NCBI RefSeq assembly: GCF_041102575.1 | Contig: NZ_JBGCUE010000005.1 | Location: 1 to 64,000 of the forward strand | Length of the DNA: 64,000 nucleotides | Direction of reading: 5' to 3' | From: Tenuifilum sp. 4138str | GTDB taxonomy: Bacteria; Bacteroidota; Bacteroidia; Bacteroidales; Tenuifilaceae | Shown: positions 16,617-61,280 of the stretch, in pieces | How positions within the stretch are numbered: the stretch's first letter is position 1 | Layout: each line of letters opens with the position of its first letter | Made by a program: the position numbers and the translations under genes | Notes under the pieces: model-generated | Database searches by the model: none | What the model was told of the DNA's origin: nothing | Seen by the model: the letters and a program-made list of their open reading frames with translations, nothing else

Positions 16617-16630
16617 TTTATATTGATATT

Positions 16631-17833
16631 TCAATGTTGTTTAGTTAAGGTTATTTGTCATGTTTCGCGCAAGCGAAACATCACACTGTTGTGATTTATA
16701 GGGATAGACTTCGCCGAAGCATCTCATTGCTCTTTTCTCTTCAATCCTTTGAATAGATCCCTCGACTTTGCTTGGGATGACAAAAAACCTATCTTCCATT
16801 CTGCTCCCTTGTCATGCTGAGCAAGCCGAAGCATCTCTATACCTTTAATTCTTTTTGTTTTTCTTTAAACCGCTCTTTGCCATGCCTTTCCGTTGCGATG
16901 CAATCCTTCAGTTTCGCTCTTAGGAATATGTATTGCGTGCATCGCTATGCATGTGGGAATAAACATGGTGTTACAAATATTACGCCCCTACGGGGCTGGA
17001 AGCGTTGTTAGTTGTTCGTGTAATTGACCTCACCCCTAGCCCCTCTCCTGATAGGAGAGGGGAGAAGCAATTAGGAAACTTTGTTGCAGGGCTAAAGTCT
17101 CCCCTATCAGGGGAGATTTAGAGGGGTCATCTAGATTGGATGTGGAAAACAACCTCACCCCAGCCCTTTTCCCTTAGAGGGAATGAAGCAGAAGAAACAA
17201 GCAGAGGCATAAAAGCCTGACCCGGCAATGGGTCGGGGGTGGAACGTGGCGGTGGGTTTAGTAAGCGATATCACATGAATCACGCCGAAGGCGTGGCGAA
17301 TAGTATCGCGTGGCAGTTCCACCCGCGGGGTACCCATCGGGTCGGGCTTTTCAGCCTTGATTTTCTTTGGTTCTTTCTTGTATCAAGACAAGAAAGAACA
17401 TGTAAACCGCTCTTTGCCATGCTATTCTGTTGCGATGCAAAATTTCACCTTTACCCTTTGGAAAATGTATTGCGTGCATCGCAAAAAAAATTTTAATACC
17501 TCAATACCCTGGGTTAAAACCCAGGGCTAATGTGATTTGCCCTTTCAGGGCGATTTATGTGTGCGTCTAAAGACGTGTGCTAACTAGTGAGTTCTTAAAT
17601 CTTAAATCGAGATCCCTCGACTACGCTCGGGATGACTATGGAGTTGTAAATGTTAAGCCCCTACGGGGCTGGAAGAGTTGTTCGTTGTTCGTGGAATCGT
17701 TGTTCGTGAAGCTATTGTCATTTTGAGCTAAGCGAAACGTCTCATGGGGTCGATTAGAGATCCTTCGCTCCCCGCTAGGGCGGGACAGGCCGCTCGGGAG
17801 GACAGGCATATTTTTATTAACTAAACGACATTG
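16631..17833 (+). mobile_element. Non-coding TIR element, copy A
   Basis: A 1203-bp segment without a credible gene. Left end CAATGTTGTTTAGTTAA and right end TTAACTAAACGACATTG form a 17-bp terminal inverted repeat with one mismatch. Perfect 10-bp direct repeats TATTGATATT lie outside at 16621-16630 and 17834-17843, as expected for a target-site duplication. The interior is a chain of palindromic modules: several GTCATnnTGAGC...GAAGCATCTC boxes; two GCGATGCA...TGCATCGC hairpins (16895-16945, 17432-17482); a CCCCTACGGGGCTGGAAG box (twice); a long structured hairpin (17211-17351); a 12-bp stem (17370-17399); and a CCCTGGG/CCCAGGG hairpin near 17508. The same chain recurs inverted at 60022-61280. 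Short reading frames inside are repeat translations. Confidence 0.85.
17211..17351. other. Long structured hairpin inside element A
   Basis: Nested pairing over about 140 nt. AAAAGCCTGACCCG... (17211 on) pairs with ...CGGGTCGGGCTTTT (to 17351). GGGTGGAAC (17237-17245) pairs with GTTCCACCC (17316-17324), GCGATA (17265-17270) with TATCGC (17304-17309), and CACGCC (17281-17286) with GGCGTG (17290-17295). It is directly followed by a second stem, GTTCTTTCTTGT (17370-17381) with ACAAGAAAGAAC (17388-17399). The same fold exists in copy B. Whether it acts as DNA cruciform or as RNA is unknown. Confidence 0.7.
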
Positions 17834-17841
17834 TATTGATA

Positions 17842-18114
17842 TTAGTTTTTACTCAAGGGCGGATAGGGTGGAGTGGTTGCTAATTTTTCATCCACAATAT
17901 CTGATAGTAGAATACTTAGCTCATTAATAGTTTTTTTGTCTTCAATTATCTCTATCACTTCTTCCTTATTAAGAAAATTAAGAATAAAAAAGGAATCAAA
18001 GTCGATGTTTAATCTCAAATACTGATAGAATCTTTGGTTTTCAAGTTCAAAACCCATTGATTTTGCATACTTCTTCAATCTTTTTTCCAGTTCTTCTTTT
18101 GTTAGTTTAGCCAT
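17842..18114 (-). CDS. Hypothetical 90-aa protein
   Basis: Short, Lys/Glu-rich, probably helical and cytoplasmic protein (MAKLTKEELEKRLKKYAKSM...). There is no signal peptide or membrane segment, and I do not recognise a family. The AT-rich composition differs from the neighbouring element. The last residues (TTPPYPPLSKN) are proline-rich and may be poorly conserved. Its stop codon lies inside the right target duplication of element A: insertion left the stop intact but moved the hairpin at 16588-16616 about 1.2 kb away. The ATG at 18114 is the only good start. Confidence 0.55.
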   Translation of the reverse strand: MAKLTKEELEKRLKKYAKSMGFELENQRFYQYLRLNIDFDSFFILNFLNKEEVIEIIEDKKTINELSILLSDIVDEKLATTPPYPPLSKN

Positions 18115-60021: not shown

Positions 60022-61280
60022 TCAATATCGTTTAGTTAAGGTTATTTGTCATCCAGAGCGTAGCGAAGGATCTCTCATCGACCCCATGAGATGTATCACT
60101 TGCGCTCAACATGACAACCTTCTCATGAAACGAGCAATAGCAAGTATCACAGAGTTACACAATGTAACACGGTGTTACACAGAGCGTGTGACGTAATATT
60201 CACGAACAACGAGCAACGAATAACGAACAACGCTTCCTGCCCCGTAGGGGTGAAACATTTGCAACTCCATTGTCACCCCAAGCAAAGTCGAGGGATCTCG
60301 ATTTAAGATTAAGAACTCACTAGCTAGCACACGTCTTCAGACGCACAAATAAATCGCCCTGAAAGGGCAAATAACATTAGCCCTGGGTTTTAACCCAGGG
60401 TAATGAGGTATTCAAATTATTTTGCGATGCACGCAATGCATTTTCCATAGAACAATCCTGAAACGTTGCATCGCAAAAGAAAAATCATTACAAAGAATTA
60501 TTTACATGTTCTTTCTTGTCTTGATACAAGAAAGAACCAAAGAAGATCAAGGCTGAAAAGCCCGACCCGATGGGTACCCCGTGGGTGGAACTGCCACGCG
60601 ATACAATTCACCACGCCGTAGGCGTGGCTCATTTGGTATCGCTTACTAAGCCCACCGCCACGTTCCACCCACGACCCATTGCCGGGTCAGGCTTTTATGC
60701 CTCTGCCTGCATCTTCCGCTCCATTCCCTCTCAGGGAAAAGTGCTGGGGTGAGGTTGTATCCCACGAGCAACGAACAACGAGGAACTTACACGAATGACT
60801 TCATTTGTCATCCTGAGCATAGCGTAGGATCTCAAATCGACCCCATGAGATGTTTCGCTTGCGCTCAACATGACAATAGCTTCACGAACAACGAACAACG
60901 CTTCCCGCCCCGTAGGGGCGTAATATTTGTAAAACATTAGTATTCTTAAATCTGGAGCGATGCACACCATACATTTTCCAAAGAGCAAAGGGAAAGCGTT
61001 GCATCGCAAAAGAAAAGCATAGCAAAGAGCAGTCTCCAAAAACACAACAAGGGTTAAAGGGAAATAGATGCTTCGGCTAGCTCAGCATGACAATGGAGCA
61101 GAAGGGAAGGTAGGGTTTTTGTCACCCCAAGCAAAGTCGAAGGATCTCATCAAAGGACTGAAGAGAAAGGAGCAAAGAGATGCTTCGGCAAAGTCTATCC
61201 CTATAAATCAGGACTCAGCACGACAGCGTGATGTTTCGCTTGTACTCAACATAACAAATAACCTTAACTAAAAGACATTG
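60022..61280 (-). mobile_element. Non-coding TIR element, copy B
   Basis: A 1259-bp diverged copy of the element at 16631-17833, in inverted orientation. Its ends form a 30-bp inverted repeat with 3 mismatches (60023-60052 against 61251-61280), sharing the core TTTAGTTAAGGTTATTTGT. Outside lie ATGCATACT (60013-60021) and ATACATATT (61281-61289), 7 of 9 identical, a decayed target duplication. Module order equals copy A read backwards: CCCTGGG/CCCAGGG box near 60390, GCGATGCA hairpins at 60424-60474 and 60957-61007, a 12-bp stem at 60509-60538, and the long hairpin at 60556-60696. Some modules are swapped: A's CCTCTCC-type hairpins are replaced by TCATGTTGAGC boxes. No transposase is present. 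Confidence 0.83.
60556..60696. other. Long structured hairpin inside element B
   Basis: Counterpart of 17211-17351. AAAAGCCCGACCCG... pairs with ...CGGGTCAGGCTTTT, and the inner GTGGGTGGAAC, GCGATA and CACGCC stems are all kept. The inner stem is one pair longer than in copy A because a G-G mismatch there is a T-A pair here. Loops differ between copies while stems are retained. Confidence 0.65.

Follow-up and report, generated by a model that had tools for sequence, protein, structure and literature searches.

A gene-less insertion and its empty sites

Is the repeat-bounded region at 16621-17843 of the window (the whole 64,000-nucleotide stretch of DNA analysed here) a transposon and, if so, what moves it and how did it acquire an interior apparently devoid of genes? 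The original prediction, made from the sequence alone, described a 1.2-kb insertion with inverted ends (16 of 17 positions) and an exact 10-bp target duplication. It considered the interior to be gene-free and built of palindromic modules, and the size and modular structure to be unusual for a non-coding element. It also proposed looking for further copies, an autonomous partner with a transposase, and empty sites in relatives.

The element lies on the plus strand at 16632-17833 and measures 1202 bp between its CAATG ends; the predicted length of 1203 bp is obtained only if an extra T at 16631 is counted. The left terminal inverted repeat, CAATGTTGTTTAGTTAA (16632-16648, plus strand), fits the end consensus of the IS4 subgroup, -AATR--------WTW. 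It is identical at 16 of 17 positions to the right terminal inverted repeat, TTAACTAAACGACATTG (17817-17833, minus strand), which reads CAATGTCGTTTAGTTAA on the minus strand. The 10-bp sequence TATTGATATT is duplicated exactly outside the ends, at 16621-16630 and 17834-17843, and the single extra T separates its left copy from the left end of the element. The whole follows the nqr operon with its terminator and comes immediately after the stop codon of a 90-aa ORF in convergent orientation.

Both the empty and the filled state of this site occur in relatives. The site is contiguous in two congeneric genomes (G004 and G005), reading TATTGATATTTAG in G005, and is occupied in a genome of the same species (G060), in which TATTGATATTT flanks the element on both sides. 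The empty G005 sequence and the G060 flanks together show that the duplication originally comprised 10-11 bp, and that a one-base change arose later in this genome. Six other copies of the element family correspond to contiguous empty sites in G060. The window element thus has the target duplication and the empty site expected of a non-autonomous IS4-type element.

A multi-copy family

The 17-bp end pattern has 90 matches in this 3.28-Mb Bacteroidales genome when up to two mismatches are allowed, versus 3 for a reversed control. Pairing the ends yields 36 elements of 132-1875 bp, i.e., the window element and 35 others, although membership is doubtful for three of them (two of 132 bp and one of 318 bp). 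The remaining 33 are all longer than 318 bp, and 18 exceed 1 kb. In total, the 36 paired elements cover 36.8 kb, or 1.1% of the genome.

Flanking 10-mers agree at 8 or more of 10 positions in 24 of the 36 elements, compared with 1.2 expected under shuffled pairing (maximum 7 in 2000 shuffles); about a third of the paired elements have no clear duplication. The duplicated targets approximate the consensus AWTYNNNAWT. A second copy of 1258 bp is found within the window (60023-61280), flanked by ATGCATACTT and ATACATATTT, which match at 8 of 10 positions. Among 296 genomes sampled across the phylum, 2 contain the exact 18-base end: the present one and another from the same order. The sequence, the empty sites and these further copies bear out the predicted insertion.

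An IS4-type partner

We found an autonomous partner in G060, the only genome in which an intact partner was read; for the present genome, the analysis covered the contigs other than C24-C26, three small ones that might contain it. It is a 1480-bp insertion sequence (L179, 2-1481) with perfect ends and a 447-aa ORF. The encoded transposase (P0001) matches the NCBIfam model NF033592, transpos_IS4_1 (1.5e-51; 175.5 bits versus a cut-off of 115), as well as Pfam PF01609, DDE_Tnp_1 (2.1e-11). It contains the complete YREK motif, Y-(2)-R-(3)-E-(6)-K, as YHYRWSEEEAYKLLK. The IS4 subgroup is characterized by lengths of 1400-1650 bp, ends of the form -AATR--------WTW and 10-13-bp repeats (De Palmenaer et al. 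2008, PMC2266710). Given its 1480 bp, its ends (CAATGTCGTTTAGTTA) and three 10-bp duplications at contig breaks, the partner belongs to the IS4 subgroup of the IS4 family. The window element has its inverted ends in common with this autonomous element.

The two ends of the partner also occur at contig breaks in the present genome. Six contig ends (C4:314868-314942, C3:1-74, C7:181340-181412, C10:135972-136043, C19:1-75 and C21:9544-9617) stop 72-75 bp inside an end of the partner type, and these ends are of two kinds. The sequences that flank them on the outside match in pairs, giving three exact 10-bp duplications, AATTATGAAT, AATTACGAAT and AATGAATTAT. This is the pattern that three near-identical copies of a single longer element would leave by breaking the assembly. 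The duplications predict that C4 joins C3, C7 joins C10 and C19 joins C21 across partner copies.

Relatives of the partner occur more widely. In a genome of another family in the order (G032), the same ends enclose remnants of a transposase that are 61-70% identical. Distant relatives (33-38% identical), including elements named ISPa1635, are found on plasmids; four of these were inspected, of which two have similar ends (CAATGTCATTAAGTTA and CAATGTCATTAACTTT). A partner search with Pfam DDE_Tnp_1 in eight relatives gave an end match at one of 21 loci, and that locus is not a bounded element. The autonomous copy in G060 has a 314-bp neighbour with ends of this kind (L179, 1566-1879), 85 bp away.

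We consider it very probable that the window element is a copy of a gene-less, multi-copy transposon of the IS4 subgroup that is moved in trans by the 1480-bp insertion sequence, and that its mosaic interior was reshaped after insertion. The transposase of the insertion sequence would recognise the common 17-bp ends, and mobilisation in trans by an L179-type partner would generate the 10-11-bp AT-rich target duplication.

A mosaic interior

The interior of the window element is a mosaic of palindromic modules that bear no relation to the transposase gene. Its ORFs are all 85 aa or shorter and match no Pfam family, for which reason they were rejected as genes; the element lacks coding capacity, as a non-autonomous element should. 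No transposase remnants were found in the interiors of the elements, and a search for a phage relationship gave no match. Folding energies are well below those of shuffled sequences (z = -4.5 and -6.3 for the two halves of the window element), which, along with the comparison of modules across elements, agrees with the prediction of palindromic modules.

We mapped the modules by comparing the interior of the window element with the other 35 elements. Modules beside the ends are nearly constant: at one end, a hairpin module (GTCATGTTTCGCGCAAGCGAAACATCACA, 16656-16685) is matched in 34 of 35 elements, and at the other end the number is about 29-31 of 35. An 80-nt module (CTCTTTGCCATGC...TTGCGATGCA...TGCGTGCATCGC; repeat family D1) occurs at 16866-16945, is present in about 30 of 35 elements, and has a second, 84% identical copy at 17403-17482. 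Repeat family D2 is a 69-nt module with an CGCCCCTACGGGGC hairpin at 16956-17024 and, in a second copy (83%), an GCCCCTACGGGGC hairpin at 17629-17697. A long imperfect hairpin, AAAAGCCTGACCCG ... CGGGTCGGGCTTTT (17205-17356), is shared by about 28 of 35 elements.

Two modules are optional. The first (CTCTCCTGATAGGAGAG / CTCCCCTATCAGGGGAG, 17026-17200) is found in about 14-20 of 35 elements, and the second (17490-17640) contains an RNA-family match that is discussed below. Part of the first (17026-17119) weakly matches the candidate RNA family whalefall-1, at a sub-threshold 18.4 bits versus a gathering score of 37. Break points of the mosaic recur at hairpins, most commonly at a perfect hairpin with 12-bp arms (GTTCTTTCTTGT/ACAAGAAAGAAC, 17370-17399).

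Orthologous insertions differ in length. The element at the window site is 1202 bp here versus about 1817 bp (~1.8 kb) in G060, where the insertion contains a segment of about 0.5 kb in duplicate. In two further orthologous pairs, the lengths are 1410 versus 735 bp and 1057 versus 945 bp. Following insertion, the interior grows and shrinks, presumably by duplication and deletion between modules through recombination. The same-species pair allows the interior of one insertion to be compared at 1.2 and 1.8 kb.

Modules similar to those in the interior also form arrays without IS4-type ends elsewhere in the genome. Long intergenic arrays of this kind are located at C2:290492-292052, C12:41700-42960 and C10:67060-68480. 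Such end-less arrays, too, vary in length between the two same-species genomes. For the 1.56-kb array at C2:290492-292052, G060 has 275 bp of other repeats, and comparison with G060 revealed no clean target duplication at this array. The unbounded arrays were therefore rejected as precise insertions.

How the ends came to enclose the modules

Two IS4-type ends might have come to flank a piece of an intergenic repeat array and then moved with it as a unit, comparable to a mobile insertion cassette. We regard such a capture as possible, if somewhat doubtful. It would account for the occurrence of the same modules in arrays without ends. It also fits other genomes of the order, in which the same ends surround short elements (about 105-300 bp) with quite different palindromic repeats. 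However, the near-constancy of the end-adjacent modules in this genome points to one founder that spread, rather than to many captures.

A classical MITE origin, in which the elements are internal deletion derivatives of the partner that acquired their repeats later, seems to us less likely again. The ends are the same as those of the partner, and a related IS4-type element does have a true derivative by internal deletion in another genome: a 424-bp element in G021 (L184, 1143-1566) with a perfect 10-bp duplication. Yet the 36 elements resemble the partner only over the terminal 20-30 bp or so, and the interiors lack a transposase remnant. Since there is no internal similarity, we rejected an internal deletion of this partner as the origin of the elements, and the 20-30 bp or so common to both are too little to establish descent of the elements from the partner.

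Overlap with the Acido-Lenti-1 RNA family

The second optional module of the window element matches the Rfam family Acido-Lenti-1 (RF01687) at 17507-17552 on the plus strand, with a score of 39.8 bits versus the curated gathering threshold of 37. Acido-Lenti-1 was proposed from Acidobacteria and Lentisphaerae, and was considered only “probably” an RNA (Weinberg 2010, PMC2864571). This genome has 31 RF01687 matches. Thirteen are inside elements with both ends, i.e., within 1.1% of the genome, 7 are in stretches with one end and 11 are without ends.

In a distant member of the order (G053; loci L283 and L285), RF01687 matches just under the curated threshold are found within elements of about 200 bp, where they abut the right end; one of the elements inspected has a perfect 10-bp duplication. 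Two families of the order thus have Acido-Lenti-1 matches within non-autonomous elements of the IS4 type. A contig scan with the Acido-Lenti-1 pattern matched only two Bacteroidales metagenome assemblies, from the same genus. These data show that many Acido-Lenti-1 copies in the order move with a transposon; transcription is compatible with the evidence.

The above-threshold score might suggest that the region is a cluster of functional small RNA genes bounded by repeats through coincidence, but the module occurs in no more than about 10 of 35 elements, can recur several times within a single element and is inside sites that are empty in relatives, making this explanation very improbable. Chance pairing of inverted and direct repeats, despite AT-rich flanks that favour short direct repeats, has a negligible probability in view of the copy number and controls, and is refuted by the empty sites.

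A broader, two-part proposal has, in our estimation, an even chance of being correct. Its first part is that Acido-Lenti-1 in Bacteroidales is largely a DNA-level palindromic module of IS4-type non-autonomous transposons and related arrays, and not a stand-alone small RNA gene. Its second part is that IS4-type ends are a reusable shell that was filled independently with lineage-specific palindromes across the order. Acido-Lenti-1 is used in genome annotation as an RNA family, and caution is needed, given that, in this order, it frequently belongs to mobile repeats. Copies located downstream of protease genes in Tannerella may regulate those genes, according to a 2026 paper (PMC13298647); this suggestion can now be tested against a simpler one, namely that the copies are remnants of transposons.

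Classification and comparison with known systems

These results establish that a doubtful repeat is a genuine transposon family with many copies and a named partner. The window element belongs to a known kind, the non-autonomous IS4-type transposons, of which its length, mosaic interior and overlap with an RNA family make it an uncommon variant. Its ends and 10-11-bp duplication are those of the IS4 subgroup (PMC2266710), to which the partner conforms in size, YREK motif and transposase family; in contrast to members of the subgroup, the window element has neither a transposase nor internal sequence of the insertion sequence.

Inverted ends common to an insertion sequence, a target duplication and the absence of genes are also properties of MITEs. 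However, MITEs in the strict sense are about 30-300 bp (PMC4133298), whereas the window element has 1202 bp and most copies of its family have 0.5-1.9 kb. The element is therefore better called a non-autonomous transposon, and its size and modular structure are indeed unusual for a non-coding element, as was originally noted.

TIMEs, mosaic non-autonomous transposons and mobile insertion cassettes (PMC4133298) resemble the window element in having transposon ends around foreign sequence that is moved in trans. Their ends are of the Tn3 or IS231 type and their cargo consists of genes, whereas the window element contains repeat modules and lacks the passenger gene of a mobile insertion cassette. 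BIMEs and REP arrays (PMC2817692) are likewise palindrome mosaics in intergenic DNA, but lack enclosing transposon ends and target duplications.

BrickBuilt and MITE464/PgRS of Porphyromonas gingivalis (PMC4596501) also occur in Bacteroidales, and are gene-less, multi-copy and intergenic, with interiors built of repeats and ends shared with an insertion sequence. These elements have IS5-type ends, tandem minisatellites of 23 or 41 nt and few clear target duplications. By contrast, the family described here combines IS4-type ends with dispersed palindromic modules and clear 10-bp duplications.
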